DNA from: an uncultured Bacilli bacterium
GTDB taxonomy: Bacteria; Bacillota_I; Bacilli_A; RF39; UBA660
Length of the DNA stretch: 36,439 nt
Direction of reading: 5' to 3'
NCBI GenBank assembly: GCA_944331835.1
Contig: CALVIU010000010.1
Coordinates: 1 to 36,439, forward strand
Shown here: positions 12,725 through 30,030 of the stretch, one piece after another
Layout: each line of letters opens with the position of its first letter
How positions within the stretch are numbered: position 1 is the first letter of the stretch
Position numbers and translations under genes: made by a program
The notes under the pieces: model-generated
The model's database searches: none
What the model saw: only the letters and a program-made list of their open reading frames with translations
Told to the model about the DNA's origin: nothing

Positions 12725-13144
12725 ATGGATTGGATATTTTGGCTAATTTTAGTAATTGTTTTAGCAATTATTGAACTTGCAACAGTAAATTTACTTACTA
12801 TATGGTTTTGTATTAGTGGTTTAGTTGCTTTGTTTTTATCATTTTATATTGATGATGTAGCAATAGTTTCAACCATATTTGCGGTATTAGGAATATTTTT
12901 ATTATTTACAACTAGACCTATATTAAAAGAATATCTTCCAACTCAAAAGAAAGTAAAAAAAGTAGAAAAACTAATTGGAAGAATAGGTATTGTAACTAAA
13001 GATATTCGTCCTGATATGGAAGGAGAAGTAAAAGTAAGCAATCGTAAATATATAGCGATTTCCGATAAAAAGATTTCTAAAAATACAGAAATTGAAGTTA
13101 TAAATACTGACGGACTAAAGTTAGTTGTAGCAAAGAAAAAGTAA
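12725..13144 (+). CDS. nfeD: NfeD-family membrane protein
   Basis: This is the short NfeD form, 139 residues. Three closely spaced membrane helices (about residues 4-22, 25-44 and 47-66) are followed by a soluble OB-fold domain (about 80-139, with GRIGIVTKDIRPDMEGEVKV). Such proteins partner with flotillin or SPFH proteins and influence membrane domain organisation; no SPFH gene is in this window. TAGGAG lies before the ATG. Confidence 0.85.
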   Translation: MDWIFWLILVIVLAIIELATVNLLTIWFCISGLVALFLSFYIDDVAIVSTIFAVLGIFLLFTTRPILKEYLPTQKKVKKVEKLIGRIGIVTKDIRPDMEGEVKVSNRKYIAISDKKISKNTEIEVINTDGLKLVVAKKK

Positions 13145-13145
13145 A

Positions 13146-13191
13146 GGGGCTGTCGTGAAACGAATTAATTAGTTTCTTGACAGTCTCTTTT
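13146..13191 (+). terminator. Intrinsic terminator after nfeD
   Basis: GGGCTGTC (13147-13154) pairs with GACAGTC (13179-13185) with G-U help. An inner GAAAC/GTTTC stem and a short T run follow. The rest of the gap to mraZ (13192-13284) shows only a ten-base direct repeat, TACTGATAAT, starting at 13201 and 13218, with no gene. Confidence 0.7.
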
Positions 13192-13284
13192 ACTAATTTT
13201 TACTGATAATTATTTTATACTGATAATATCGAATAGCTTAAGGCGATGCAAAAAAAGATAAACGTCAAGTAATGTAAAGAAGTC

Positions 13285-13313
13285 AAAAAGTAAATATTGG
13301 ATATTTACTTTTT
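13285..13313 (+). terminator. Strong hairpin upstream of mraZ
   Basis: AAAAAGTAAATAT (13285-13297) pairs perfectly over 13 bases with ATATTTACTTTTT (13301-13313), loop TGG. It isolates the division cluster from upstream transcription. Because of the A/T tracts it can work in both directions. Confidence 0.8.
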
Positions 13314-13332
13314 TTATGTTTTTTGGTAACAT
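13304..13332 (+). promoter_or_regulatory. Possible mraZ promoter
   Basis: TTTACT (13304-13309) lies 17 bases before TAACAT (13327-13332), each 4 of 6 matches to consensus. Transcription would begin at about 13339-13341, right at the first MraZ repeat. The assignment is tentative. Confidence 0.4.
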
Positions 13333-13340
13333 TATGGTAG

Positions 13341-13370
13341 ACAGTGGCATACTGTGGAAGAAAGTGGGGG
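13341..13370 (+). promoter_or_regulatory. MraZ operator: three GTGG repeats at 10-base period
   Basis: Three consecutive 10-base units each carry GTGG at the same position: ACAGTGGCAT, ACTGTGGAAG, AAAGTGGGGG. MraZ is known to bind tandem GTGG-type repeats upstream of its own gene (AAAGTGG-like boxes in mycoplasmas, TGGGN repeats in E. coli). The last box doubles as the ribosome binding site, so MraZ could block both transcription and initiation. Confidence 0.85.
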
Positions 13371-13375
13371 ATAAA

Positions 13376-13816
13376 ATGTTATTGGGTGAATATCATCATA
13401 ATATCGATGATAAAGGCCGATTAGTTATTCCTACTAAGTATCGTGAAGAATTAGGTGATGAATTTATCATTACTAGGGGAATTGAACGATGCTTATATGT
13501 CTATTCCAAAGTAGAATGGGAAAAATTAGTTAGCAAATTAAATACTCTACCTTTCACTAAAAAAGACGCCCGAACATTTATGAGGTCCTTCTTTTCTGGC
13601 GCTACTGTTTGTGAGTTCGATAAAAGTGGTCGAATAAACATTACCTCCCCGTTGGTTAGTTACGCCGGTTTGACAAAAGAATGTGTCATAATCGGCGTGA
13701 ATGACCGATTAGAAATATGGAGTGAAGAAGCATTTAACAAATTTATGGATGATAATCAAGAACAACTTGAAGATATTGCTGAACATCTATTTGAGGTGCA
13801 AAATGAAGCATTATAG
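13376..13816 (+). CDS. mraZ: Transcriptional regulator MraZ
   Basis: MraZ is a DNA-binding ring protein that controls the division and cell wall cluster. The true start is the ATG at 13376 (MLLGEYHHNIDDKGRLVIP), 5 bases after GTGGGGG. A frame open further upstream would add residues unlike the family and run through the operator. The 146-residue protein has two AbrB-like half-domains, with signatures DDKGRLVIP and FDKSGRINIT. The stop overlaps rsmH by 14 bases. Confidence 0.95.
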   Translation: MLLGEYHHNIDDKGRLVIPTKYREELGDEFIITRGIERCLYVYSKVEWEKLVSKLNTLPFTKKDARTFMRSFFSGATVCEFDKSGRINITSPLVSYAGLTKECVIIGVNDRLEIWSEEAFNKFMDDNQEQLEDIAEHLFEVQNEAL

Positions 13817-14711
13817 TGTTTTAAAAGATGAATTAATTGATTCACTCAATATTAAAGAAGACGGGATATATGTTGATGCAACCGTAGGGTATGCCGGGGA
13901 CGCTACTAAGATATTAAAAAGAATAAAAAGGGGATATCTATTCGCCTTCGATCAAGATCCAGTTGCAGTTGAGTATTCAACAAACACTTTAAAAAATATT
14001 GGTAATAACTTTAAAATATTTACTGCCAATTTTGTAGAAATGCCTGAATTATTAAAAAATGTTGGCTTAGTAGATGGCATAATCTTCGATTTAGGATTTT
14101 CTTCTCCCCAAATTGATGATGAATCTAGAGGATTTTCTTTTATGCATGATGGACCGTTAGATATGCGAATGTCTAGTAAAGGAAAAAGTGCTAAAGAAAT
14201 AATCGATACTTACAGTGTCGAAAAACTTACTCAAGTATTTTTCCAATATGGTGAAGAAAAAATGAGTAAAGTTATTGCCAAAAATATTATTAAAGAAAAA
14301 GAAAGTATTACGACAACTTTAGAATTAGTTGAAGTAATAAAAAAGGCAGTTGGGGCTAATTACTTTTATAAAAATCATCCAGAAAGAAAAATATTTCAAG
14401 CATTAAGAATTGAAGTAAATGATGAATTAAAAGTATTAGAAACTGTTTTGCCGGAGGCTATTAAACTACTAAAAAAAGGTGGTAGACTTAGTGTTATAAC
14501 ATTCCATTCTCTTGAGGATAGAATAGTTAAAAATATTTTTAAAAAATATAGTGAAGTTGATGAATTACTTAAAGGTGAAAAAGATATTCCTGAGGAATAT
14601 AAACCTTTAATTAAAATAATAAATAAAAAACCAATTTTGCCAAGTGCTAAAGAACTTGCTGAAAATTCTAGAAGTGCTAGTGCAAAATTAAGAATAGTTG
14701 AAAGGATATGA
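13803..14711 (+). CDS. rsmH: 16S rRNA (cytosine1402-N4)-methyltransferase RsmH
   Basis: RsmH methylates N4 of C1402 in 16S rRNA. The start at 13803 (MKHYSVLKDELIDSLNIKEDG) is set by GAGGTG at 13793-13798 and by the family's usual beginning. Motifs are DATVGYAGD for SAM binding (a variant of the common DATLGGGGH), FDQDP, FDLGFSSPQIDDESRGFSF, DGPLDMRM, HPERKIFQALRIEVN and ITFHSLEDRIVK. The length is 302 residues. It is translationally coupled to mraZ and overlapped by the ftsL ribosome binding site. Confidence 0.95.
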   Translation: MKHYSVLKDELIDSLNIKEDGIYVDATVGYAGDATKILKRIKRGYLFAFDQDPVAVEYSTNTLKNIGNNFKIFTANFVEMPELLKNVGLVDGIIFDLGFSSPQIDDESRGFSFMHDGPLDMRMSSKGKSAKEIIDTYSVEKLTQVFFQYGEEKMSKVIAKNIIKEKESITTTLELVEVIKKAVGANYFYKNHPERKIFQALRIEVNDELKVLETVLPEAIKLLKKGGRLSVITFHSLEDRIVKNIFKKYSEVDELLKGEKDIPEEYKPLIKIINKKPILPSAKELAENSRSASAKLRIVERI

Positions 14712-14715
14712 TAGT

Positions 14716-15015
14716 ATGGCTAGTAAAAAGACAAGAAAAATTAAATTACTAAAGGGTGAAAAGTTTATGTATGGCATTTTAATTTTTTTAGTACTTGCCA
14801 TACCTATGTTTAGTGTGTATACTAGTTCTTTGTTAAGTGAAACAAATAACGAAGTAGAAAAATTAAAAAATAATATAGAAAGTCAAGAATTAGTTAACCA
14901 AAGTTTATCAATGCAAGTTGATGAATTAGCTAGTTTAGAAAACATTCAAAAAATTGCTGAAGAATATGGACTTTCTTATGTAAATAGTAATATAAAAATA
15001 ATTTCAGCAGAATAG
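14716..15015 (+). CDS. ftsL: Cell division protein FtsL-like
   Basis: This is a 99-residue bitopic protein with a basic N-terminus (ASKKTRKIKLLKGEK), a membrane helix (about residues 18-37) and an extracellular leucine-zipper-like coiled coil (NNEVEKLKNNIESQELVNQ). FtsL sequences are poorly conserved, so the call rests on size, topology and position between rsmH and the penicillin-binding protein. The ATG at 14716 follows GAAAGGA by about 10 bases and is preferred to an in-frame TTG at 14698. Confidence 0.8.
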   Translation: MASKKTRKIKLLKGEKFMYGILIFLVLAIPMFSVYTSSLLSETNNEVEKLKNNIESQELVNQSLSMQVDELASLENIQKIAEEYGLSYVNSNIKIISAE

Positions 15016-15025
15016 GAGAGAGTGT

Positions 15026-17137
15026 ATGAAAAAAAGAGCAACAGTTAAAATATCTAAAGTTATTATTTTAATAGTTGCTTTTTTGTTTGTGGCAGCTATT
15101 GTAAAATTATCTTATATAGTTTTAAGTAGTAAAGTTGATGGTATTGATTTACAGGCGAAAGCCGCATCAATTGCTACAACTGAAGAAACATTGTATGCAA
15201 ATCGTGGCAATATTTATGATGTTAATGGGGAAATGCTAGCAACAACAGTTAATGCTTATACAGTAATTGCTTACCTTGATGAAAGTAGAACAACTGATGC
15301 TGAAAATCCTCGCCATGTTGTTGATAAAGAGGCAACTGCTGCTGCTTTAGCACCACTTCTTGAAATGAGTGAAGAAAGAATACTAGAATTATTAAATAAA
15401 GATGTTTATCAAGTAGAATTAGGTCCTGGTGGAAGAGGAATAACTGAAGTATTAAAAAGAGCAATTGAAGAATTAGAACTTCCTGGAATAGATTTTATAA
15501 GTGATTCTAAAAAAAGATATTATAGCAATTCGACATTCGCTTCATATATAATTGGTTATGCCAAAGAAAACGAAGAAGGTAAGTTAGTTGGAGAATTAGG
15601 CATCGAAGGATACTATGATGATTTATTATCAGGTACTAATGGTTATACCCAATATTTAAAATATACATCTAGTAACTATAAAATACCTAATACACCAGAA
15701 GAAACTGTTGAAGCAGTAGATGGATCGGATATTTATTTGACAATTGATTTTGATATTCAATATATTGCTGAAAATGCTGTTAAAGAATTTCAAGATACAT
15801 ATAAAACAGAATGGGCGATATTTACTGTAATGGATGCTGACACGGGAGCAATCGTAGCATCTGCTACTAGTCCTAATTTTAATCCTAATGATACAAATAC
15901 TATAACTAGTTACATGAATCCTTTAGTAAGCTATCAATATGAACCTGGTTCTGTTATGAAAATATTTTCCTTTGCATCAGCGATTGAAGAAGGTCTATAT
16001 GATGGTGATGAGTTATATGAATCTGGTTCAATTCAAGTAGATTCAGAAACAGTTATTAATGACGTCGATAAAACTTGGGGAACCATTTCATTTGATACAG
16101 GTTTTGCGTATTCTTCCAATGTTGCTGCAACGACACTTGCTTTCCGTTTGCTAGAATATGGTGAAAAGAAATTGCCAGATTATTATGATGCTTTAGGTTT
16201 TGGCAAAAAAACTGGTATTGAACTTGCTAATGAAGTAAGTGGTGATATGGAAGTCGTTTATAAATCGGAACTTGCCAATTCATCATTTGGTCAAGGTATA
16301 AGTGTTACTCCAATTCAAATGCTTCAAGCACTATCTAGTATGACTAATGATGGTAATATAATAAAGCCTTATATTGTTGATAAAATTGTCAATAGTGAAG
16401 GCAATATTACATATGAAGGAAAAAGAACAGTAGTAAATAATGTTTATAGTAGTCAAACAGTTGAAAAAATGCATGAACTTATGCATAAGATGATTTATGA
16501 AGGTTTATCTACTGCTTGGCAAATTGAAGGTTTAAGCATGATGGGAAAAACTGGTACAGCCCAAATAGCATCACCAAATGGTGGTTATTTAACTGGAGAA
16601 TATGATACAATAAGGTCATTCGCTGGAATATTTCCTGAAGAAGACCCAGAATATATCGTCTATGTAGCTGCTAGAAAAGTAGAAGGAAATAGTGTAAAAT
16701 TTGCTAATGTTGTAACATCAGCTATCGAAGAAATTGCTAAACATGCTAAACTTACTAGTGAAACAAAAGAAACAGATTTAAGTAAAGTAATAAATATTGA
16801 AAATTACTTAAGCAAAGATATAAGCTCTGTAACTACAATGTTAGAAAATCAAAAGTTAAATATTGTTGTAATTGGAAATGGTAAATATATTACTAATCAA
16901 TACCCATTAAAAAATGGTACCGTTTTAGAAAATGGCAAATTATTTTTAGTTACTAATGGTACTGAGTTAAAGATGCCTAATATGACTGGCTGGAGTTTAA
17001 GTGATGTTAAAAATTATTGTAATTTAATAGGATTAAATCTCGAATATAACGGCTATGGTTATGTTTCGACTCAGAGTCTAGCTCAAGACACAGTATTAGA
17101 TGTTGCTAATATGACGCTGAGTGTTCAATTAGAATAA
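15026..17137 (+). CDS. pbpB: Class B penicillin-binding protein with C-terminal PASTA repeats
   Basis: This is a peptidoglycan transpeptidase for septal synthesis. The 703-residue protein has one N-terminal membrane helix (about 11-33), a dimerisation domain (NRGNIYDVNGEMLATT near 60) and the transpeptidase domain. The catalytic motifs are S309-x2-K312 (GSVMK), S363-S364-N365 and K508-T-G. Two PASTA units fill about 590-703. Bacillus homologues are PBP2B (division) and SpoVD (sporulation); with no sporulation genes here, the division role is favoured. AGGAGAG supports the start. It ends the cluster; mraY, murD and later division genes are not next to it. The gene symbol is by homology class only. 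Confidence 0.9.
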   Translation: MKKRATVKISKVIILIVAFLFVAAIVKLSYIVLSSKVDGIDLQAKAASIATTEETLYANRGNIYDVNGEMLATTVNAYTVIAYLDESRTTDAENPRHVVDKEATAAALAPLLEMSEERILELLNKDVYQVELGPGGRGITEVLKRAIEELELPGIDFISDSKKRYYSNSTFASYIIGYAKENEEGKLVGELGIEGYYDDLLSGTNGYTQYLKYTSSNYKIPNTPEETVEAVDGSDIYLTIDFDIQYIAENAVKEFQDTYKTEWAIFTVMDADTGAIVASATSPNFNPNDTNTITSYMNPLVSYQYEPGSVMKIFSFASAIEEGLYDGDELYESGSIQVDSETVINDVDKTWGTISFDTGFAYSSNVAATTLAFRLLEYGEKKLPDYYDALGFGKKTGIELANEVSGDMEVVYKSELANSSFGQGISVTPIQMLQALSSMTNDGNIIKPYIVDKIVNSEGNITYEGKRTVVNNVYSSQTVEKMHELMHKMIYEGLSTAWQIEGLSMMGKTGTAQIASPNGGYLTGEYDTIRSFAGIFPEEDPEYIVYVAARKVEGNSVKFANVVTSAIEEIAKHAKLTSETKETDLSKVINIENYLSKDISSVTTMLENQKLNIVVIGNGKYITNQYPLKNGTVLENGKLFLVTNGTELKMPNMTGWSLSDVKNYCNLIGLNLEYNGYGYVSTQSLAQDTVLDVANMTLSVQLE

Positions 17138-18265: not shown

Positions 18266-18294
18266 TTGCAAATACATTTTTTGTTTGGTATAAT
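18266..18294 (+). promoter_or_regulatory. Promoter of the AAA+/DUF2357 operon
   Basis: TTGCAA (18266-18271), a 17-base spacer and a perfect TATAAT (18289-18294) preceded by TGG, an extended -10. It lies 28 bases before the first ATG and back to back with the minus-strand promoter. Confidence 0.8.
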
Positions 18295-18321: not shown

Positions 18322-19395
18322 ATGAGTTTAAGTGTTATCGATAAATATGTAGAAAAAAAGAAGAAAGATCTCTTGGAATATTCCAAAATATTGGAATCAT
18401 TGATAACCTTAGAAGATAACAAAATGTGGAATAATAAATCTGAATTTAGTGTATACTCCAAAGAAATAATATCATTATATGCCGATAAATATTACTTTGA
18501 TAATAATATCCACCGTGATAATCCGATTGAATATTCCAACGATAATATCAATTATGTATTACAATCGATAATTGAATATTGCAAAAATAATAATAAGGAA
18601 AGTATGCTACGAGAGTTAAAAAACGAAACGTTTTTACTTTCTGTAATCATTTGTACTTCTTGCTATTTGGATATCGCTACAAATGTTGTTGATGGACAAT
18701 TTGTAGATACTAAAAATAAATTTAAATATTTATTAAATTATTTAAAGAAAACTAAAATATTGAAAGTATTTGCATCTGATAAAGTACGTATTAATGATTT
18801 GTTTAATATTATTAAGAAAAATACTAAAGAAGATAGCAAATTCTTTGAATATTTTAAAAGTGATGACTATTTTAATAGATATAAAATATATACTAAAGAT
18901 CCATATTATTATTTAGTTGAGTTTGAATATAATATTCCAGAATTAAAAGATTTTGATGAATCTTTAGTAAATAAGGTTAAAAATAGTTATCAAACTAAAT
19001 TGTTGGGAGTATCTCTCGATTTGCTTAGTATTCATATTTTAGAAGAACTAGTAAGTAATAGGGTAGTAAATACTTATCTTATAAAGTTAGATGAAGTATT
19101 AAATAGGAAACCAAATTTATTAAAAGTATTTGATGATAAATATTTTAAAGAGCATATTAAAGTATTAGTTCCACTAAATAAAGAAGTAGAATTTAATGAT
19201 ACAATTAATGCTATTAGTAAAATGGGAATTAATATTTTATATGAATATGATGAAGCTGGCAACGTCAATGAAAACAAATTCACCTATGATATGGAAGTAA
19301 TAGTGCCAGAAGGATTTTTAGATAATAATGCTGAAAATAAATATACATGGGATAAAAATGGTGTAAAGTTTGTAAGTAAGAATAAGGAGGATTAA
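18322..19395 (+). CDS. Uncharacterised protein, first gene of the AAA+/DUF2357 operon
   Basis: No family is recognised. The 357-residue protein is Lys/Asn/Tyr-rich, mostly helical to about residue 290, and ends in a strand-rich segment (FTYDMEVIVPEGFLDN). There is no signal peptide; one moderately hydrophobic helix near 107-120 (FLLSVIICTSCYLDIAT) is more likely a buried core than a membrane pass. AGGTGA at 18311-18316 sets the start. The stop is 3 bases before the AAA+ gene, whose ribosome binding site lies inside it, so the two are surely co-translated. A partner or adaptor for the AAA+ protein is a reasonable inference. Confidence 0.75.
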   Translation: MSLSVIDKYVEKKKKDLLEYSKILESLITLEDNKMWNNKSEFSVYSKEIISLYADKYYFDNNIHRDNPIEYSNDNINYVLQSIIEYCKNNNKESMLRELKNETFLLSVIICTSCYLDIATNVVDGQFVDTKNKFKYLLNYLKKTKILKVFASDKVRINDLFNIIKKNTKEDSKFFEYFKSDDYFNRYKIYTKDPYYYLVEFEYNIPELKDFDESLVNKVKNSYQTKLLGVSLDLLSIHILEELVSNRVVNTYLIKLDEVLNRKPNLLKVFDDKYFKEHIKVLVPLNKEVEFNDTINAISKMGINILYEYDEAGNVNENKFTYDMEVIVPEGFLDNNAENKYTWDKNGVKFVSKNKED

Positions 19396-19397
19396 TT

Positions 19398-20903
19398 ATG
19401 AGTGTGTATGGAGAATTTTTTACAAAATTTATGGAGCCTTTCTTTGAAGGATTATTAGAAATAGTTAAAGGAATAGGCCGTGGTTTAGGACAAATGTTTA
19501 ATGTCGTTAACTATGTAACTGTTGTTAATGATTATAAAAGTGATTTAACTGGTGTTGGTATGGTTATCATGATTTTATCAATTATTTTATTGTTGGCATT
19601 ATTTGCAGTAATAATATTTTTGATTTATCGGGCAGTTAGAACATATGTAAGATATCGCCGAAATGTTAAGAAAGAAGATAGATTAATTGAAGAAATCGAA
19701 GTATTAAATAATGAAATTTTAAAATTAAAAAGACAAAATGCTAAGATTGCTGAACTTACCAATGAAAATGGCGAAATTGAATATGATGAAAATGGTAAAG
19801 TTAAAAACGAATTAAAAGAAGGAGAAAGCAGATTCTTTAAACTTAGCAGTGTTGATGCTAAATTCAAAGAATATACTCCGGAAGAAATTCATAACAATTT
19901 TACTTTACAAGAATTATGTGATACATTCAGAAACTTTTCAGCTTCTAAATTAGGATTATATTACGATATTAATTTAATAAGATTGTTTATTGCTTCGTTT
20001 GCTTCAAATAAACTTATAATTCTAGAAGGTATTTCTGGTACTGGTAAAACTTCTCTTGCTTATGCTTTCGGGGAATTTACTAAAAATGAAACAACTGTAG
20101 CAAGTGTTCAACCATCATGGAGAGACTCAACTGAAATATTTGGATATTTCAACGAATTTACAAAGAAATTTAATGAAACTGAAATATTAGAAAAGATGTA
20201 TGAAGCCCAATATACTGATGAAGTTTATATTACACTTCTTGATGAAATGAATATTTCTCGTGTTGAATACTATTTTGCGGAAATGTTATCTATTCTAGAA
20301 CTTCCTAATAAAAAGGATTGGGTTGTTGAATTAGTTCCAAATGTATGGCCTGGAGATCCTGAAAAATTGGATGAAGGAAAATTAAAAATTCCTGAAAATA
20401 TGTGGTATATTGGTACAATTAACAACGATGACTCAACATTTATGATTACTGATAAGGTTTATGATAGAGCAATGCCTATTGCAATTGATGATAAATGCGA
20501 AGAATTTGAATCTCCTGATACTGAAGCAGTACAAATCAGTTATAAATATTTTGAAGGATTATTTGATAAAGCTGAAAAGGAACATCCAGTTACTGATGAA
20601 ACTCTTGAAAAAGTTGCTCAACTTGACCGTTATGTAATTGATCATTTCCGTCTTGCTTTTGGTAATCGTATTGTTAAACAACTTCGTGAATTCGTTCCGG
20701 CATTTGTTGCTTGTGGTGGCGATGAAGTAGCAGGTATCGATTATCTAATTGCTCATAAGATTTTAAGAAAATTTGAACAATTAAATTTAGCATATATTAA
20801 AGACGAAATTGATGGATTAATTAATTATTTAGAAAAATTATTTGGAACTGGTAAAACTCCAGAATGTAAAGCATATTTACTTCGCCTTAAGAAGACAATA
20901 TAG
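19398..20903 (+). CDS. Membrane-anchored McrB-like AAA+ NTPase
   Basis: This 501-residue protein has an amphipathic N-terminus, one strong membrane helix (about residues 52-78), a coiled coil (about 88-125) and a C-terminal AAA+ domain. Walker A is GISGTGKT (211-218), Walker B is LLDEMN with D282 and E283, the sensor 1 region is GTINNDD (N342, N343), and R357 is a candidate arginine finger. The LDEMN and IN-x2-D patterns are those of the McrB branch, where MNxxD is the GTPase signature; whether this one uses GTP or ATP cannot be told. McrB proteins drive a McrC nuclease in type IV restriction. A membrane anchor is unusual. AAGGAGG precedes the start. Confidence 0.8.
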   Translation: MSVYGEFFTKFMEPFFEGLLEIVKGIGRGLGQMFNVVNYVTVVNDYKSDLTGVGMVIMILSIILLLALFAVIIFLIYRAVRTYVRYRRNVKKEDRLIEEIEVLNNEILKLKRQNAKIAELTNENGEIEYDENGKVKNELKEGESRFFKLSSVDAKFKEYTPEEIHNNFTLQELCDTFRNFSASKLGLYYDINLIRLFIASFASNKLIILEGISGTGKTSLAYAFGEFTKNETTVASVQPSWRDSTEIFGYFNEFTKKFNETEILEKMYEAQYTDEVYITLLDEMNISRVEYYFAEMLSILELPNKKDWVVELVPNVWPGDPEKLDEGKLKIPENMWYIGTINNDDSTFMITDKVYDRAMPIAIDDKCEEFESPDTEAVQISYKYFEGLFDKAEKEHPVTDETLEKVAQLDRYVIDHFRLAFGNRIVKQLREFVPAFVACGGDEVAGIDYLIAHKILRKFEQLNLAYIKDEIDGLINYLEKLFGTGKTPECKAYLLRLKKTI

Positions 20904-20910
20904 GTGAATC

Positions 20911-21996
20911 ATGAATATAGTTGATTACATAAATAATTTAAATAAAGAAAAAGTCGAAAAATTTATTGAGTCTACTAGTTCAGATATAATTATCAAAAGT
21001 GATATTGAAAAAAAAGTAAGTGATACATCTTGGATCGATATGGTCGAAGAATGTATCCCTTATCTTGATAATATTATTAGAAATCCTCGTAGATTTATTG
21101 TTCAAGAAGAAAATATTGTACCAATTGAAAAGGCTAAAGTAGTAACCGAAGAATCAATTAGACATTTGGCACAAAATACTAATTTAATTCAAGAAGTTCA
21201 TGATGATGGTACAGTTATTCCCCTTAAGCTTTTAAACGTTTATCGGGAAGAAACAATCGACCTTTATGAAAATAGATTTATTAAATCATTAGTTGATAAT
21301 CTATATACATTTGTGCAAAATAAACTTAATGAATCAGACCAAAGATCATATGCTAAAGTGCATAATGTAGTAACTTATCAAGGAGAAAAAAAAGATAAAA
21401 GTGCATCATATAAAATTAATTTAACTCTTGAAAGCAATTTTGATGACGAAGTTGATGCTTCTAAAGATGGACATACTTTGGAAGAACGCATCGAGCATAT
21501 TAGAGATGTCATCGGAGCTTTTAGATCATCAACATTTATTAAAGGGTTAAAGGAAAGTAGTCCAGTACGTAGTCCAATTAGAAAGACAAACGTAATACTT
21601 AAAGAACCAAACTTTATGAAAGCACTTGATTTATGGGAATATTTAGAAAAAAATAATATTAAACCGATGACTTCAATAGTTAGTGAATCAAAAGAAAGTA
21701 AAGATGCTAATATAAAAGAAAAATATGATTTAAGCTTCTTTATTGATACGGATGCATTAAGAGAATCTAAGAGTGAAGCACCAGTATATAATGAAGCAAT
21801 TATTAGTAAACTTATCAATGATTTTGTATATTCAGGAGATGTAACTGAAGCTGATTTTAAGAAAATATTGAATAAAGAATTCAAAGAAGCAAGTAAGAGA
21901 AAACTTAAGGAAGAAGCAAATGTTAAGAAATGCTTCAAAAACTTCTTTGATGAATTTGATAAGAAATCCAAAAAAGCATTTAGCTTATTAAAATAG
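20911..21996 (+). CDS. DUF2357-like (McrC-related) partner protein
   Basis: This 361-residue protein carries the pattern of DUF2357 proteins: EESIRHLAQNTNLI (residues 80-93), then REETIDLYENRF (112-123), corresponding to the family's RxLAxHT and TxDxxENRF segments. DUF2357 proteins pair with McrB-type AAA+ proteins and often carry a PD-(D/E)xK nuclease domain. I see no clear nuclease motif in the C-terminal half (about 200-361), which is Lys/Glu-rich and helical. It may therefore be a regulatory or adaptor partner, or hold a divergent nuclease. It starts 8 bases after the AAA+ stop, with AGGTGA overlapping that stop. Confidence 0.65.
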   Translation: MNIVDYINNLNKEKVEKFIESTSSDIIIKSDIEKKVSDTSWIDMVEECIPYLDNIIRNPRRFIVQEENIVPIEKAKVVTEESIRHLAQNTNLIQEVHDDGTVIPLKLLNVYREETIDLYENRFIKSLVDNLYTFVQNKLNESDQRSYAKVHNVVTYQGEKKDKSASYKINLTLESNFDDEVDASKDGHTLEERIEHIRDVIGAFRSSTFIKGLKESSPVRSPIRKTNVILKEPNFMKALDLWEYLEKNNIKPMTSIVSESKESKDANIKEKYDLSFFIDTDALRESKSEAPVYNEAIISKLINDFVYSGDVTEADFKKILNKEFKEASKRKLKEEANVKKCFKNFFDEFDKKSKKAFSLLK

Positions 21997-22011
21997 TGAG
22001 GGATGAATTTT

Positions 22012-23676
22012 ATGGCAAAGAAAAAAGAAGAAAAGATAAAGAAAAATAGTAACAGAGAAGTAATAGATTTAAAAGAATTTATGCTTTTAGATGCTAAAAA
22101 GCAAGATGAAACTATCAAGAAAACTCTTGATATTATGTATGAAGGAAGCATCGAAGTAACTAAAAAGCATATTGAGAAAGTTTTAAATATCTGTTTTGAT
22201 ACCAAAGACAATGAAGTTTACTTACCAGGTAGTTTAAAAGTAGAAAAAACTGGTAGTAAATTATTATTCTATTTTGCTAAACGTAACAATGTGGGACTTA
22301 TCATTCTTTTTCTTCTTGCATTCCTATTTATGGGTGGCTTTGCTACATATACTGGAGTTCAATATTTAGGAAGATTACAAATGAATCAAGATTTAGATGG
22401 TGACGGTGTTGCTGATTTAAACATCGATTTAGATGACGATGGCATTTGTGATATTAACTGTGATACTGATAAAGATGGTAAACCTGATCGTAATATTGAT
22501 TACCAAGGTAATCGTAAGCCAATATTTAATGTTCAAATGGATGATGGTACAATATTTAATCCAGTAAATCAAGATACTGATGATGATGGTATTTGTGATA
22601 TCAATTGTGATATTGATAAAGATGGCTGGCCAGATACTAATATCGATTTAGATGGTGATGGAGAGCCAGATATCAACATTGATACTAATGGTGATGGCGT
22701 TGCAGATATAAATATTGACACAAATGGTGATGGAAATCCCGATATTAATATTGATTCTGATAATGATGGTGTATGTGACCGTAATTGTGTTCCACCTTCA
22801 ACACAAAACAAAGGTGAATTAGATGTCGATTTAGATGGCGACGGAATATGTGATGTTAATTGTGATACCGATGGTGATGGAAAACCTGATACAAATTTAG
22901 ATTATTGGGGAGATAAAAATCCAACATTTAATGTCGAAGATGAAGAAGGAAATATTGATAATCCTACTAATCAGGACACTGATGGTGATGGAGTATGCGA
23001 TATCAATTGCGATATAAATGATGATGGCTGGCCAGATACAAATATTGATTTAGATGGTGATGGAGAGCCAGATGTCAATATCGATACTAATGATGATGGC
23101 ATACCAGATTTAAATATTGATACCGATGGTGATAAAGAACCAGATATGAACATTGATACTGATGGCGATGGGGTATGTGATGAAAATTGTGCTTCCATTG
23201 TAACTGATGATGGTACAACTGATGGTATTTATCAGGAAGGCGATGATGATCTTGATTTCAATACTGCTAGCTTAATTGTTATTTTTGAATCACAAAATAA
23301 AGTTGTAGCAGATAATATTTATCCTGATGATCAAGTTGGCGAAGGATTTAATACTACAATACCAGATTTAGTATTTACAGTCCAAAACATGACTAATCAA
23401 ACCATATATTACGATTTAAGTTGGATAGTAAACGAAAATACTTTTGAAAGTACTAATTTCTGGTATCGAGTTGCTAGTGATAATAACGGATTTAATCAAG
23501 ATTGGATTACTGCTCCAAAAACAGATAGTGTATTTGCAAATAGAATAGCAATTGCTCCTAATGTAACTCAGACTTACCATATTTCATTTACATTACATGG
23601 AACTGGTGAGGAACAAAACTATGACCAAGGTAAAATCTTTGATGGTCAAGTATCAATTGAATTGAATGAAGAATAA
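22012..23676 (+). CDS. Single-pass membrane protein with calcium-loop (TSP type 3-like) ectodomain
   Basis: The ATG at 22012 is chosen because GTGAGGG (21996-22002) lies 9 bases before it; the ATG at 22003 abuts that site. The 554-residue protein has a basic cytoplasmic N-terminal region of about 90 residues and one membrane helix (about 93-116). The ectodomain has roughly 20 DxDxDGxxD-type calcium loops as in thrombospondin type 3 repeats, arranged as two copies of about 130 residues. A beta-rich C-terminal domain of about 150 residues follows. Six CDxNC (Cys-x3-Cys) motifs are spread through the repeats. There is no sorting signal. As the last gene of the AAA+ operon, it may be the surface sensor or exit point of that system. 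Confidence 0.8.
   Translation: MAKKKEEKIKKNSNREVIDLKEFMLLDAKKQDETIKKTLDIMYEGSIEVTKKHIEKVLNICFDTKDNEVYLPGSLKVEKTGSKLLFYFAKRNNVGLIILFLLAFLFMGGFATYTGVQYLGRLQMNQDLDGDGVADLNIDLDDDGICDINCDTDKDGKPDRNIDYQGNRKPIFNVQMDDGTIFNPVNQDTDDDGICDINCDIDKDGWPDTNIDLDGDGEPDINIDTNGDGVADINIDTNGDGNPDINIDSDNDGVCDRNCVPPSTQNKGELDVDLDGDGICDVNCDTDGDGKPDTNLDYWGDKNPTFNVEDEEGNIDNPTNQDTDGDGVCDINCDINDDGWPDTNIDLDGDGEPDVNIDTNDDGIPDLNIDTDGDKEPDMNIDTDGDGVCDENCASIVTDDGTTDGIYQEGDDDLDFNTASLIVIFESQNKVVADNIYPDDQVGEGFNTTIPDLVFTVQNMTNQTIYYDLSWIVNENTFESTNFWYRVASDNNGFNQDWITAPKTDSVFANRIAIAPNVTQTYHISFTLHGTGEEQNYDQGKIFDGQVSIELNEE
22387..23196 (+). repeat. Duplicated block encoding calcium-binding repeats
   Basis: Two in-frame copies of about 400 bases are offset by 402 bases. 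For example, GATGGCTGGCCAGATA begins at 22621 and again at 23023. Each copy encodes about 130 residues with the same order of loops and the sequence GWPDTNIDLDGDGEPD. Sequence divergence between copies indicates an older duplication. Confidence 0.85.
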
Positions 23677-23694
23677 GCTTGCAAGAGCTTTTTT
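23675..23694 (+). terminator. Terminator of the AAA+/DUF2357 operon
   Basis: AAGCTT (23675-23680) pairs with GAGCTT (23685-23690) with one G-U, loop GCAA, then a T run. The -35 of the next promoter (23679-23684) is buried in the hairpin. Confidence 0.65.
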
Positions 23695-23707
23695 CTTTTG
23701 CTATAAT
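23679..23707 (+). promoter_or_regulatory. Promoter of the tandem RNxxxH protein gene
   Basis: TTGCAA (23679-23684), a 17-base spacer and a perfect TATAAT (23702-23707), 24 bases before the ATG at 23732. It gives the gene its own transcription despite its close position to the operon. Confidence 0.75.
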
Positions 23708-23731: not shown

Positions 23732-25300
23732 ATGCAAGGAGTAGAAAAGGCTAGTTTAGGTACAAGATATTTATTAAAATATTTAGAAAATAAAAAACCC
23801 GTATATTTTGATGTTGTAAAAAACTGTATATCAGAAGTAAGATTTTGGGCTTTAGTTATGCACTTTTGTAACAATATGGATGATCTGTTTAAAGAACTTC
23901 CTGATGAAATAATAGCTAAGGTATTTAAGAGTGAAAAAATAGCTAAAGTAATTGATGTATTAGATGGAAGTAAATCTGTCGTTTATCAATATGGAACAGG
24001 TTACCATTCATCTATTATAGAAAACTATCGCACTCAAATTCGCCTTATTCGCAATTGTCTAGCCCATGGGAATTTTTCCTTCGACGGAGAAAAGATAAGT
24101 GTCCAAAATCCATCTTTAGATTTCTGGGCGACATTTGATATTAAATGGTTTGAGGCTCTGGTGTTGAGTTTACTATCGAATCATATGATGAAAAAAGGAA
24201 TAACTGATTATAGCATTATTGCTACAGAATCCCTTGAGGGAAAAGCTGTTAGTGAAATGCTAGCATTAAATAATACGGGAAGTTTAAATTTAATAAAAAT
24301 TACATGTGTTGCTGATAACCCTAAAGCAGTTATCAGCAAATTTCCTAAATTGGCTAAAGTAGAAAATAGAATTAATTTTAATCAAATGAAAACATCTTTT
24401 ATAAGAGCCTTATATAAAGAGATACAATTAAAGTCTTTAGAAATGCCACCGAAAGAGGCTTTCACTAATGCTCTTTACCTTTTAAAAAGAGCGTATGCTG
24501 GTATATTGGATATTGAATGTATTAAATTAGATGATAATCTATTCAATGATTCAGAATTTTTAAAATTAAGCCTTAAAGATGGCTGCATCTATTTAACAAA
24601 TAAATGCAATAAGGAAAACAAAGTAATGCGTAATACAATTGATTTAAAAAGCATTTTAGCAATATTAGATCAAATAGAAGCTGGAAAAGAATTGACATTA
24701 GAAACTGAATATGAGTTTAAAGACTATGAATTATTTTTATTAAAATTGTATGGTTATATATTGTTTTCCCAAAAGTTTTCAGTTTATCATCAAGAAAGAA
24801 TGCAAGATATATTTGAAGAGTATTTAGAATATCTTAATCAACATTATGTTCATGCTCACAATGTTTGGAAAGAATATATAAAAAAGATTAGTAAAAGTGT
24901 TGATGCATTAATGTTATCTAATGCTAGCAGTAGAGAAATAGAGCTATGGAAAGAGCGATTAAAAATGTATAAAGATCGTTTAGATAGATTAGTAAATGAA
25001 GATATTAATGAACAAACATTTTGGAATTTTAGAAACTCCTTAACTCATGGACTTGTTGAAGAAGCAGGCGATAGAATTATCTTTTATGGTGAAGAACCAG
25101 AGATAATGTTACCAAAATTAAATAGTAAAACTAAGGAATTACTTTTAACAAGCTTTCGGAATAAAGGAAGAACATTTGAGTTAAATGTAGATAAGAATAT
25201 ATATTTACAAATGCTTGACAGATTATATGAAAAAGCTGGTATAGAAATTAGTGTAAATATTGCCAAATATCGTCAAAGAAAAGGGTATTTAAAAAGTTAA
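23732..25300 (+). CDS. Tandem HEPN-like protein with two RNxxxH motifs
   Basis: The start at 23732 follows GGGGGAG; the frame is open upstream but overlaps the previous gene and promoter. The 522-residue protein has no membrane helix. Two matching segments stand out: IRLIRNCLAHGNFSFDGEKI (R107, N108, H112) and FRNSLTHGLVEEAGDRIIFY (R434, N435, H439). Both are an R-N-x3-H-G motif followed by a short beta hairpin. R-x4-H with Asn at the second position is the catalytic signature of HEPN ribonucleases in toxin, abortive infection and CRISPR effector proteins, but it also occurs in HEPN domains with other roles. The two copies lie in equivalent N- and C-terminal helical regions, suggesting an internal duplication. 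RNase activity is inference. Confidence 0.65.
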   Translation: MQGVEKASLGTRYLLKYLENKKPVYFDVVKNCISEVRFWALVMHFCNNMDDLFKELPDEIIAKVFKSEKIAKVIDVLDGSKSVVYQYGTGYHSSIIENYRTQIRLIRNCLAHGNFSFDGEKISVQNPSLDFWATFDIKWFEALVLSLLSNHMMKKGITDYSIIATESLEGKAVSEMLALNNTGSLNLIKITCVADNPKAVISKFPKLAKVENRINFNQMKTSFIRALYKEIQLKSLEMPPKEAFTNALYLLKRAYAGILDIECIKLDDNLFNDSEFLKLSLKDGCIYLTNKCNKENKVMRNTIDLKSILAILDQIEAGKELTLETEYEFKDYELFLLKLYGYILFSQKFSVYHQERMQDIFEEYLEYLNQHYVHAHNVWKEYIKKISKSVDALMLSNASSREIELWKERLKMYKDRLDRLVNEDINEQTFWNFRNSLTHGLVEEAGDRIIFYGEEPEIMLPKLNSKTKELLLTSFRNKGRTFELNVDKNIYLQMLDRLYEKAGIEISVNIAKYRQRKGYLKS

Positions 25301-25356: not shown

Positions 25357-25884
25357 ATGGATTGGTTAAGTATTCGGGAATTATTATGGGATACCATAAA
25401 ATTAATTTTAGTAATAGTAGTAATTTTATTCTTAATGATTTACGTAGTATCAGTAACTCAAGTTGTAGGTAGTTCAATGAGTCCTACATTAAATGATGAA
25501 GAAGTCCTAATTTTAAATAAATTTAATTATCATGTGTTTGATATTAAAAGGGGAGATATAGTCTCTCTTGATTATGAAGATACAAAATATTTAATAAAAA
25601 GAATAATTGGACTTCCCGGAGAAACAATTGAAATAAAAGATAGTAATCTTTATATAGATGGAAAACTTTATGAAGAAGAATATCTAAGTGATGATCTTGT
25701 CTATCCGGATTTTTCACTTGCTGATTTGGGTTATGATGTTATACCTGAGGATATGTATTTTGTCTTGGGAGATAATCGCGAAAACTCATTAGATAGTAGA
25801 GAAATAGGCCTTGTGAGTAAAGATTCCATTAACGGAAAGATTGCTATGAGGCTTTGGCCTTTAAATAAAATTACATTTTTTTAG
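25357..25884 (+). CDS. sip: Type I signal peptidase
   Basis: This enzyme cleaves signal peptides from exported proteins at the outer membrane face. The 175-residue protein has one N-terminal membrane helix (about 12-34), the catalytic Ser in GSSMSPT (S40), the catalytic Lys in YLIKRIIGLPGE (K81), and the conserved LGDNRENSLDSRE box. The short form with one anchor is typical of Firmicutes. TAGGAGA precedes the start. It sits directly before a 1342-residue exported protein with its own promoter and may process it and the other secreted proteins further right. Confidence 0.95.
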   Translation: MDWLSIRELLWDTIKLILVIVVILFLMIYVVSVTQVVGSSMSPTLNDEEVLILNKFNYHVFDIKRGDIVSLDYEDTKYLIKRIIGLPGETIEIKDSNLYIDGKLYEEEYLSDDLVYPDFSLADLGYDVIPEDMYFVLGDNRENSLDSREIGLVSKDSINGKIAMRLWPLNKITFF

Positions 25885-26001: not shown

Positions 26002-29000
26002 ATGGATAAGAGAAAAGGTATAATTTTAGCTATTGTACTATTTTTGATCATTGGACTTGGAACATTCGTGTTTGCAGGTGGCAGTGATGAAGGATCCGGA
26101 GATGGTACAATTACTCCACAACCTGATGGTGGAGATGATAATGATCCTACTAATCCATCAGATCCTACTACGGAAGATGATGGAAATATAACGGAAGGAG
26201 AAGACAGAGAAGATACTACTAGACCAACTGGTGGAAACGATGACACTGATGGAGATGAATTAGTAACTGATGGCGAAGGCGAAAATAATCCAACAACTCC
26301 AACAGTTGATTATAAAGCTCTACTAGATGAGTTAGCAAATATGGTAGAAAGTGCTACTAGTAAGGAAGACTTAGCAGAAGCAGAACAATTTAGAAAAGAT
26401 AACAATATTACTGAAGAAAATGTTGCTACTTTAAATGATGAAGATGCTAGTAAAACTTATGATGAAGTTATTGCTATTTTAACTGATAATGATTCACCAG
26501 TAGTAATACCTGATGATTTAAATGGAAGTTTTACAAATAAAGATAGTGTAGCAGTTGAAATAACTGATACAACTGATGTGTCTTATACATTGACAATCAA
26601 TGGTGAAGAAGTTACTGATGCTGATTTAGCCAATTTAACTGAAGAAGGAAATTATAAACTTACAGTTACCGATTCAGCATTTAATAGTACTACTATAACA
26701 TTTACAGTTGATAGAACAGATCCAGTATTATTAGTAAATGGTGAAGAAGTAGAAAATGGCGAAACTATTTATGTAAATGAAGATGCAAAAATGACTGTAG
26801 ATGAAACTAATCTAGAATCATTTACATCAAATGGCAATGATAGAACAGAAAGTATACTTAAGGGTAGTTGGACTGCTCAAAATGATGGACCATATAATAT
26901 TGTAGTAACAGATAAAGCTGGTAATAAGACAACTTATAAAGTTGTTGTTGATAAAACTCCAATTGCTGTAAATCATTTATATGTATTAAATAATACTCAT
27001 AATGATTATAATGTAAGTGAAGAAAATCGCTATAAAGTAATTGGTAATGGTCAAGATTTATATGTTGAATATGTTCTAAAAGAAGAATTTACTTCTAATC
27101 CAATACTTACTATTGGTGGTAAAGAATATGAAATGACTTGTGATGTTGCAAGTTGGAATGATGAACTTTACAAATGTGATGCTCATGTAACTATTAGTGA
27201 AGATATGAATCTTGTTAATGGTGAAGTAATTCCATTTACTATAACAGGTGTTAAAGATATCGCTGGTAATGAAACAGTTGTTACAGAAAAAGATACAACT
27301 GTAAGTGATAAATATGGAAAAGTTGTATATGACAATGATCCAGCACAATCTATTTGGGTATACATTTTAAATGCTGATGAAGAACACAGAACAATTATTG
27401 GTAATAATCAAAAGTTAATTGTTGAAATAAATGTTAATGAAGAATTACTTGTAAATCCAGTAATTACTATTGGAGATTATCAAGTAGAATTAACTCGTAG
27501 AGCTAATGATTCTCGTTATATTTATTCAAAAACTATTACAATTGATGCTGATAAAATGAAATTAGTTCATGATGAAAATATAGCATTTACTATTTCAGTT
27601 ACTGATGTTGCAGGTAATACTACAACTTTGGATAATGATAATGTTACAATTCATGAAGAAAACGGCTATGACCAAGTTAAATATGATGGAAAGGCACCAA
27701 AATATAAGCAATTAGGAGTATTAAATGTCGATCATTTAAGAAACGATGAAGATGTAACTGTTGCTAAAACAGGTGATGAAATAAGAGTATTATTCCATTT
27801 TGATGAAATACTTGATGTTAATCCAAAAATGACTATTGGTGAATCTAAAACTGTTTATGAATTAAAGTTAGCAACAGATTATGAAAATTTTGCAGAATAT
27901 ACATATGTGGCTGACATTACTTTAACTGAAGATATGAATTTATCTGATGGGGCTTTAGTATATACAATCTATGGATATGCTGATGCTGCAGGTAATGTTG
28001 GAAAAACAATACATTCTACAGATTCAGATATAAAAACATACAGTCAATATCCAGGAGTAAAATATGATACTACTGCTGGAATTATAGAACTAAATGGCGA
28101 AAGCCAAATTGTATTAGAAGCAGGAATTGATGAATATGCAGAATTAGGAGCAACAGTTACAGACAATATTGATGGCGAAAAGCAATTAACCCCTGCATAC
28201 ATACATTATTCTAAAAATGATGATTTTATCGATGAAGTTCCATCAGTTGATTATATGAAAACTGGAACATATAAAATAGTATACAAATACACTGATGCTG
28301 CAGGCAATGCTAGTGTAGATGCTAACCGCCCAGATCATGATTATGTTATAAGAACAGTAATTGTAAAAGATGAAACAAAACCATTATTAACACTTAATGG
28401 TAGTTCGACAATAAAATTAGAATATGGTGTTGATGAATACAACGAATTAGGAGCTACAGTAACAGATAATGTTGATGCACCTATTACTAATTTAACACCT
28501 ACTCAAATCAAATTTAATGGCAAAATTATAAAAGATATTTCAAGTGTTAAATTTGATCAAATAGGTACATATAAATTAACTTATACATATACTGACTCTA
28601 ACGGAAATGTAGGAGTAAGTTATAAGAATCCAGAATTAAATGGTGTAGTAAGAACAGTAATTGTAAAAGATGAAACAAAACCATTATTGAAATTAAATGG
28701 AGATTCTACCATTAGACTTATAAATGGTAAAGATAACTATATTGAATTAGGAGCGACAGTAACAGATAACTTTGATGCACCTATTACTAATTTGGCACCT
28801 ACTCAAATCAAATTTAATGGCAAAATTATAGAAGATATTTCAAGTGTTAAATTTGATCAAATAGGTACATATAAATTAACTTATACATATACTGACTCTA
28901 ACGGAAATGTAGGAGTTAGTCATAAGAATCCAGAATTAAATAGTGTAGTAAGAACAGTAATTGTAATGTCAGAAAACACTACGTCCTTGGTTGATGGCGT

Positions 29001-30030
29001 TGGATATGAATCATTGAAAGATGCCGTTAATGCTGCACTTAGTAGTGGAAGTACAGTAGAATTATTAAATGACGTAGTTAGTTCAGAAAGCATAAATATT
29101 ACTGCAGGTAAAGAATTAACATTAGATTTAAATGGTAATGATATTTCTTTTGACTTTAAGAAAAATTTTACAGTTAGCGGAGGAACACTTAATTTAATAG
29201 GTGAAGGAACTGTTAGAGAAAGTTCTCCATATTTTGGCCCAATAGTTGTTAATAGAGAATTTATGCAAGGAAATAAATTGACAATTAATGTTGGCGAAAA
29301 CGTAACATTAGAAGGGTATTCTGGAATATTTATAGATAAAGGAAAAGCAAAATCTGCTATGAATACCACAATTAATTTTAAAGGTAAGATTAATTCTATA
29401 AGAGATGTAGATGGATATTCCGGATATGCTATTTATGTAAATGGAGATATTAAAAATAAAACTAATTATCCAATTATAAATATTTATGAAGGATCAGAAA
29501 TAAAATCCGTAGGTATGGGTATTTATGCTGCTGGATATGCTGAATGGAACATATATGGTGGATCAATTGAAGCACCAGGAATGGCCATTGGTATTAAAGC
29601 TGGTAAATTAAATATTTCTGGAGGAACATTTAAAGCAACTGGAGAATTAAATATTCCAACTAAGCCTGATGGCAATGGGATAAATGATTCTGGATCAGTA
29701 TTACAAATTGAAAGTAATTGTGGATATGCTCAAAATATGGAAATAAATATTAGTGGGGGAACATTTATAAGTGAAAATGCTGCTGCAATATATGAATACC
29801 CTGATGATACAACAACATCTGTAAAAGAATTTGTAATATCTGGAGGAACTTTTATAAGTAATAACTATGATAAAAACTTTGTTTTTGGACAAAGCTTTAT
29901 AAGTAGTCATAATAACTTTATGTCAAATATATCTTTTAATAAAGAAAATTCTGTATTAGATAGTTATTTAGCTGAAGGATATATTATTGAACCTCAAGCT
30001 GATGGAAGTTATAAAATAGTTCAAGGTTAG
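26002..30030 (+). CDS. Large exported surface protein with Ig-like, DUF5011-like and beta-helix regions
   Basis: Function is unknown; an adhesin or wall-associated role is inferred. The 1342-residue protein has a signal peptide (residues 1-26, ending FVFA), an acidic Pro/Gly/Thr linker (27-95), a short helical segment (about 97-155) and Ig-like domains (about 160-320). Three related beta units follow (about 325-690, each with a VLN start and an NPxxTIG core). Next are three DUF5011/HYR-like repeats of about 100 residues (690-990), with ELGATVTDN and GTYKLTYTYTDSNGN. The last 350 residues are Asn/Gly-rich and resemble a parallel beta-helix with SGGTF repeats. There is no LPxTG or C-terminal membrane helix, so the mode of attachment is unclear. 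AGGGAGG precedes the start. Confidence 0.85.
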   Translation: MDKRKGIILAIVLFLIIGLGTFVFAGGSDEGSGDGTITPQPDGGDDNDPTNPSDPTTEDDGNITEGEDREDTTRPTGGNDDTDGDELVTDGEGENNPTTPTVDYKALLDELANMVESATSKEDLAEAEQFRKDNNITEENVATLNDEDASKTYDEVIAILTDNDSPVVIPDDLNGSFTNKDSVAVEITDTTDVSYTLTINGEEVTDADLANLTEEGNYKLTVTDSAFNSTTITFTVDRTDPVLLVNGEEVENGETIYVNEDAKMTVDETNLESFTSNGNDRTESILKGSWTAQNDGPYNIVVTDKAGNKTTYKVVVDKTPIAVNHLYVLNNTHNDYNVSEENRYKVIGNGQDLYVEYVLKEEFTSNPILTIGGKEYEMTCDVASWNDELYKCDAHVTISEDMNLVNGEVIPFTITGVKDIAGNETVVTEKDTTVSDKYGKVVYDNDPAQSIWVYILNADEEHRTIIGNNQKLIVEINVNEELLVNPVITIGDYQVELTRRANDSRYIYSKTITIDADKMKLVHDENIAFTISVTDVAGNTTTLDNDNVTIHEENGYDQVKYDGKAPKYKQLGVLNVDHLRNDEDVTVAKTGDEIRVLFHFDEILDVNPKMTIGESKTVYELKLATDYENFAEYTYVADITLTEDMNLSDGALVYTIYGYADAAGNVGKTIHSTDSDIKTYSQYPGVKYDTTAGIIELNGESQIVLEAGIDEYAELGATVTDNIDGEKQLTPAYIHYSKNDDFIDEVPSVDYMKTGTYKIVYKYTDAAGNASVDANRPDHDYVIRTVIVKDETKPLLTLNGSSTIKLEYGVDEYNELGATVTDNVDAPITNLTPTQIKFNGKIIKDISSVKFDQIGTYKLTYTYTDSNGNVGVSYKNPELNGVVRTVIVKDETKPLLKLNGDSTIRLINGKDNYIELGATVTDNFDAPITNLAPTQIKFNGKIIEDISSVKFDQIGTYKLTYTYTDSNGNVGVSHKNPELNSVVRTVIVMSENTTSLVDGVGYESLKDAVNAALSSGSTVELLNDVVSSESINITAGKELTLDLNGNDISFDFKKNFTVSGGTLNLIGEGTVRESSPYFGPIVVNREFMQGNKLTINVGENVTLEGYSGIFIDKGKAKSAMNTTINFKGKINSIRDVDGYSGYAIYVNGDIKNKTNYPIINIYEGSEIKSVGMGIYAAGYAEWNIYGGSIEAPGMAIGIKAGKLNISGGTFKATGELNIPTKPDGNGINDSGSVLQIESNCGYAQNMEINISGGTFISENAAAIYEYPDDTTTSVKEFVISGGTFISNNYDKNFVFGQSFISSHNNFMSNISFNKENSVLDSYLAEGYIIEPQADGSYKIVQG
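28351..28950 (+). repeat. 300-base tandem repeat within the surface protein gene
   Basis: Two adjacent units, 28351-28650 and 28651-28950, are nearly identical over their second two-thirds. Each starts with AGAACAGTAATTGTAAAAGA, which recurs in part at 28951. The offset is exactly 300 bases, so the repeat preserves frame and can expand or contract by 100-residue domains. Confidence 0.9.

Follow-up and report, generated by a model that had tools for sequence, protein, structure and literature searches.

We propose that four adjoining genes (A to D) of an uncultured bacterium encode a membrane-tethered McrB/DUF2357 machine, which helps to export or assemble surface proteins of the SipW class rather than acting on invading DNA. 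We judge this proposal about equally likely to hold or to fail; the observations behind it are homologies, gene order, a gene fusion, a nested tree position and predicted folds.

The operon and its surroundings

The window, meaning the whole analysed stretch of 36,439 nucleotides, is contig C10 of a 1.25-Mb genome in 58 contigs. It belongs to a gut bacterium whose closest relatives are uncultured Bacilli known from metagenomes. The following features were located:

18266-18294, + strand: candidate promoter TTGCAA-17-TATAAT with TG extension (consensus scan only, score 10/12)
18322-19395, + strand: gene A, 357 aa, cytosolic; N-terminal half helical, C-terminal half EAL-like
18853-19392, + strand: EAL-like half of A (residues about 178-357)
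19398-20903, + strand: gene B, 501 aa, membrane-anchored McrB-like AAA+ protein of the GTPase type
19563-19619, + strand: membrane helix of B (residues 56-74), from hydropathy and flanking charge
20028-20051, + strand: Walker A motif GISGTGKT of B, invariant in 36/36 relatives
20421-20432, + strand: NNDD of B, matching the NxD[D/E] signature that marks the CoCoNuT/CoCoPALM branch (definition from PMC11090510); GTINNDDST invariant in 36/36 relatives
20911-21996, + strand: gene C, 361 aa, DUF2357 (McrC N-terminal type), without nuclease motif
21064-21453, + strand: DUF2357 match in C (Pfam PF09823, E=5.5e-12)
22003-23676, + strand: gene D, 557 aa; cytosolic N-domain, one membrane helix, Asp-rich modules and a tip domain
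22291-22347, + strand: membrane helix of D (residues 97-115)
about 22390-23256, + strand: two 134-aa Asp-rich DxDxDG modules of D
23263-23673, + strand: C-terminal exported-protein domain of D, homologous to SipW-adjacent exported proteins
25357-25884, + strand: LepB-type signal peptidase I, downstream of the operon (Pfam Peptidase_S26, E=2e-46)

The open reading frames bear out the tight packing described in the first-pass annotation, with intergenic gaps of 2, 7 and 6 nt for A/B, B/C and C/D. Of its single strong promoter, the site scoring 10/12 stands, but such sites are not enriched, the region holding fewer promoter-like sites than expected by chance (44 vs 54.9 in shuffles). The single terminator was not recovered: a terminator scan after D found none, and only a 5-bp stem with a T-run at ~23675-23698 was seen by eye. 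All four genes are under purifying selection when compared with four relatives (dN/dS 0.05-0.20), A being the most relaxed. The co-occurrence of the four genes in related genomes, which had been proposed as a check, was also seen, as the A-B-C-D set is kept together in 30 related loci.

The region directly upstream (12725-17137) encodes an NfeD-type protein, MraZ, MraW, FtsL/DivIC and a PASTA-bearing PBP. After D, a 522-aa protein (23732-25297) shows weak HEPN-type matches (MAE_28990, E=7e-5; RTasHEPN, E=3e-4), and the gap between D and this gene contains a promoter-like site of its own. The LepB-type gene is a second copy in this genome (the other at G000:C53); six related loci also have a LepB-type peptidase close to the operon, and we count it as a looser associate. 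Downstream of it lies the gene (26002-30030) of a surface protein of 1342 aa that contains three Ig-like domains, and large surface proteins occupy the same place in L033, L035 and L042.

In the window clade, the operon is located just downstream of the mraZ-mraW-ftsL-ftsI (PBP2) division cluster, and many near relatives likewise carry a PBP upstream of it. The ring might accordingly work with this cluster in cell-wall or division remodelling, and the helix and putative coiled-coil region of B weakly resembles FtsL (TIGR02209, only E=0.06). However, the B-C genes of distant relatives are found elsewhere, together with SipW and exported proteins, and about 70% of the sampled family species lack the system. 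We regard a division role as very unlikely.

Properties of the four proteins

A profile of B built from 36 sequences matched only McrB among the PDB sequences (E=2e-6). This confirms the McrB-branch identity given to B at first sight, including the grouping of its AAA+ domain that was to be checked. The motifs GISGTGKT, LDEMN and GTINNDDST are invariant in 36/36 relatives. The membrane helix claimed for B is evident from hydropathy at residues 56-74 and is also present in the aligned relatives. Lys/Arg residues are more frequent in the 20 residues after this helix than before it (5.5 vs 1.9, means of the relatives), which places the AAA+ domain inside the cell. Pfam searches revealed no DNA-binding family at the N-terminus of B, where the membrane helix is found instead. 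The system is patchily distributed (42/145 family genomes), and the B profile finds matches in roughly one in three of the sampled class genomes (87/247, including a minority of divergent McrB types).

The assignment of C to DUF2357, likewise named as a check, is backed by a Pfam match (PF09823, E=5.5e-12) that passes the cut-off. Across 36 sequences, C has no conserved PD-(D/E)xK columns after residue 242 and no conserved nuclease motif of acidic and Lys residues there, in agreement with the earlier remark that it carries no nuclease motif. C yielded a poor structure model (pTM 0.43); this includes a predicted long C-terminal helix and gave no usable match with Foldseek and VIA-align. Because of this weak model, the absence of a nuclease is judged from sequence conservation, and McrC-like docking of C is a family-based expectation. 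A conventional McrBC restriction system would account for the McrB and DUF2357 homology, but not for a membrane helix in place of the DNA-binding domain of McrB, for a partner devoid of the PD-(D/E)xK motif or for the SipW linkage in relatives, and we find it scarcely credible.

Searches of the A sequence against Pfam, NCBIfam, PADLOC and PDB yielded no match; A was therefore identified only through structure and profile comparison. Its AlphaFold model is confident (pLDDT 92). For residues 178-357, all 50 matches listed by VIA-align were EAL domains (Z 9.0-10.7, with 149-174 residues of the predicted model aligned to the EAL chains), while Foldseek was weak, with a best E of 0.011 to FimX. The closest folds thus are EAL domains, among them those of FimX and LapD, which are degenerate EAL receptors. 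There was no Pfam EAL match in A at E<=1, the EAL residues are not conserved, and the candidate EAL glutamate varies across the alignment. A is hence predicted to fold like an EAL domain while lacking conserved EAL residues. Furthermore, profile comparison by hhalign related A to a distant set of stand-alone A proteins (97.9%, E=5e-13) and to the C-terminal part of SipW fusions (91.8%), compared with <=0.5% for column shuffles and <=1.8% for unrelated clusters; both sets combined gave 99.0% (E=4.8e-18, 282 columns). At the level of these profiles, A is a homologue of the domain that relatives carry joined to SipW, and it no longer is the unrecognised protein of the first-pass annotation.

D consists of a cytosolic N-domain of ~95 residues, one helix, Asp-rich 134-residue modules and a C-terminal domain of ~137 residues. 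It is indeed a single-pass membrane protein, as noted before (helix at residues 97-115), and the flanking charge places its N-terminus inside. Its two 134-aa modules contain 16-21 DxDxDG-type loops. The ectodomain had been likened to TSP3, but Pfam gave no TSP_3 match at E<=1; the other database matches of D were only low-complexity ones to SD-repeat proteins. In relatives, D measures about 420, 557, 690 or 831 aa and differs in module number, so the stalk varies in units. Judging from the families, this Asp-rich stalk is probably stiffened by calcium. The tip domain is related to three exported proteins adjoining SipW in locus L063 (hhalign 98.3%, E=1.6e-14; controls <=1.5%), and it had no match in the PDB, including the expected TasA.

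The EAL-like fold of A and the single-pass topology of D would also suit a signalling relay, in which the ectodomain of D senses the outside (calcium or a host ligand) and an A-B-C complex in the cytosol turns the signal into regulation, the EAL-like domain acting as a second-messenger receptor. The nearest folds of A do include the degenerate receptors FimX and LapD, and 16/20 genomes hosting the system have a GGDEF match. On the other hand, the EAL residues of A are not conserved, three system-bearing genomes listed at 92-93% completeness have no GGDEF match, and the only GGDEF match of the window genome, a membrane protein (L116 2-1528, G000:C13), carries DGNEF at its active site. In our opinion, such a relay is unlikely. 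As a separate observation, proteins like this DGNEF-bearing one also occur in relatives. GGDEF matches of ~680 aa were suspected to be GdpP, which would have left no c-di-GMP enzyme, but their sequences are not those of GdpP.

SipW linkage in related loci

The genomic context of B in relatives points to protein export. Of 33 family loci, 30 encode a SipW-type signal peptidase no more than 6.5 kb away from B; B and C are adjacent in all 33, and an A-like protein lies upstream in 30, in 10 of them fused to SipW. Among other loci of the class, 26/29 have SipW within two genes of B, usually without A, and those lacking it are the divergent L144, L149 and L171. The SipW identity was established for L064 (TIGR02228, E=2e-25; NF046067, E=2e-23). 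With ~5 SipW-type genes per genome, ~0.06 are expected per 13 kb by chance, so the linkage is far beyond chance. SipW/archaeal-type signal peptidases are by far the most recurrent named family among the neighbour proteins of 13 loci (23/99). The B-C genes of relatives also adjoin secreted proteins with SipW-like signals (TYAWF/ATFAYF-like). These cargo proteins have no relative in the PDB, TasA structures included, and the camelysin family (Peptidase_M73) was matched by 1/99 neighbours (3.6e-6); the link to TasA therefore rests on signal type and location.

The window clade itself shows a different arrangement: SipW is found in 0/31 loci, whereas C adjoins B in all 31, A precedes it in 29 and D is close by in 30; the loci without A or D in reach are short or truncated contigs. 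Also, no SipW is within reach of the window operon; the one SipW of this genome is on another contig. In a midpoint-rooted, 72-row tree of B, which has some long branches elsewhere, the window clade is nested inside the SipW-linked B proteins (100/97 and 100/100). Given this nested position, the absence of linked SipW in the window clade looks derived. Locus L063, where exported proteins and SipW are encoded in a single series with A to D, is an intermediate between the SipW-linked and the window forms.

Several further arrangements were observed. One genome of the window's genus has both a B-C locus with a SipW-A fusion and a window-type B (L173 and G151:C39:88492-89994). A deep-branching group of B proteins (L153, L168, L169, L170) is ~600 aa long with 3-4 predicted membrane helices, and B adjoins SipW proteins of 290-350 aa there. 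In the divergent loci L149 and L171, at least two McrB-like proteins surround one DUF2357 protein (B-C-B), without SipW. Many loci encode a two-helix SipW-like protein upstream of B (e.g., L064 2296-2823). According to a crude regular expression, the Ser and His motifs are missing in 33/40 of these two-helix proteins, and 10/11 SipW-A fusions retain them; pairs of a pseudo-peptidase and an active peptidase are therefore possible in SipW loci.

The first-pass annotation had left the choice between a membrane-sited machine and an envelope-linked defence system. The envelope link is strengthened by the signal peptidases and exported proteins, while the defence part is not supported by the neighbouring genes or by C, which lacks the nuclease motif. 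An anti-phage system, our main alternative, would have D sense adsorption or membrane damage, upon which the McrB-like ring and its DUF2357 partner trigger a response such as membrane disruption. The McrBC ancestry of B and C, the match of B to the PADLOC candidate defence family PDC-M26A (E=6e-40), the weakly HEPN-like gene downstream and the patchy presence in family genomes are in line with this idea. However, no defence family recurs among the 99 neighbour proteins (each in <=2), the core carries neither a nuclease motif nor a toxin, and the conserved partners are a signal peptidase and exported proteins. In addition, the window locus is situated beside the division cluster and not in a defence island. 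We consider anti-phage defence improbable.

Proposed machine and comparison with known systems

Based on the families involved, we suggest the following course for an export or assembly machine. B would probably form a hexameric NTPase ring at the cytosolic side of the membrane, anchored by its N-terminal helices. By analogy with McrC and McrB, C would dock into this ring and stimulate NTP hydrolysis. A, with its degenerate EAL-like fold, may be an adaptor in the cytosol that joins ring and peptidase by direct contact. Since A is joined to SipW in relatives, and given the gene order, the ring would act at the place at which exported proteins of the SipW class undergo processing and assembly; SipW-type signal peptidases mature matrix fibre proteins. 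The window lineage no longer has the linked SipW or the set of several cargo genes, which would leave A-B-C to serve D as their one client. Here, A would join the ring to D, whose cytosolic domain would face the ring and whose Asp-rich stalk would hold the SipW-cargo-like domain outward.

To our knowledge, nearly everything known of McrBC-type GTPases concerns the restriction of DNA or RNA. If the machine exists as proposed, a defence motor has been reused for building the cell surface, and a large group of proteins (B matches in 87/247 class genomes) gains a function. Catalogues of defence genes may then count B-type loci wrongly. More tentatively, and with less confidence than in the proposal itself, the McrB/McrC motor may have been converted in Bacilli to use NTP for assembling or extruding surface fibres of the SipW class, an inactive EAL-fold adaptor linking it to a signal peptidase. 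Motors that assemble surface organelles would then include a new class, and the window would hold its minimal version, with one client and a stalk of variable length. Both the fusion of A to SipW and the minimal A-B-C-D operon make the machine directly testable.

With E. coli McrBC, the system shares the GTPase-type AAA+ domain with Walker motifs and the DUF2357 partner; it differs in the membrane helix of B in place of a DNA-binding domain, the NxDD signature, the lack of PD-(D/E)xK in C and the exported-protein context. CoCoNuT systems also combine an NxD-branch GTPase in tandem with a DUF2357 protein, whereas the window system has no nuclease motif and no RNA-binding modules were found in it; it has a membrane anchor and a SipW context instead. 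In the SipW-TasA-TapA/CalY operons of Bacillus, as in the relatives studied here, a SipW-type peptidase adjoins exported proteins with TYAWF/ATFAYF-like signals, but the cargo sequences of the relatives show no detectable match to TasA structures, and we know of no AAA+ or DUF2357 proteins in the Bacillus matrix fibre operons. FimX and LapD share the EAL-like fold with A, which differs from them in lacking conserved EAL residues and in that its EAL-like fold escapes sequence searches.

The closest counterpart is CoCoPALM, which Bell et al. (2024, eLife, PMC11090510) name in one paragraph, deferring detail. They describe a branch in which the NxxD signature has shrunk to NxD, mostly with E or D as the next residue. 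CoCoPALM is introduced there as a GTPase with FtsB-like membrane and coiled-coil helices, a DUF2357 partner usually with coiled coils and an association with a signal peptidase family. Our search of the open literature (subscription journals and preprints lay outside it) found no follow-up. B is an NxD-branch McrB-like GTPase whose NNDD fits this signature, with an N-terminal membrane helix, a putative coiled coil and a DUF2357 partner; the signal peptidase association is seen in relatives (30/33 family and 26/29 class loci), though not in the window clade (0/31), some loci of which have a LepB-type copy downstream. The window form differs in having no linked SipW and in its EAL-like A and modular single-pass D, and the account in that paragraph does not include SipW-A fusions or exported cargo. 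Going by the features described there, the system probably belongs with the CoCoPALM group, a kind named but uncharacterised. New here are the EAL-like A, the joining of A to SipW, the relation of D to exported proteins and the SipW-less minimal operon with its modular stalk and derived position.
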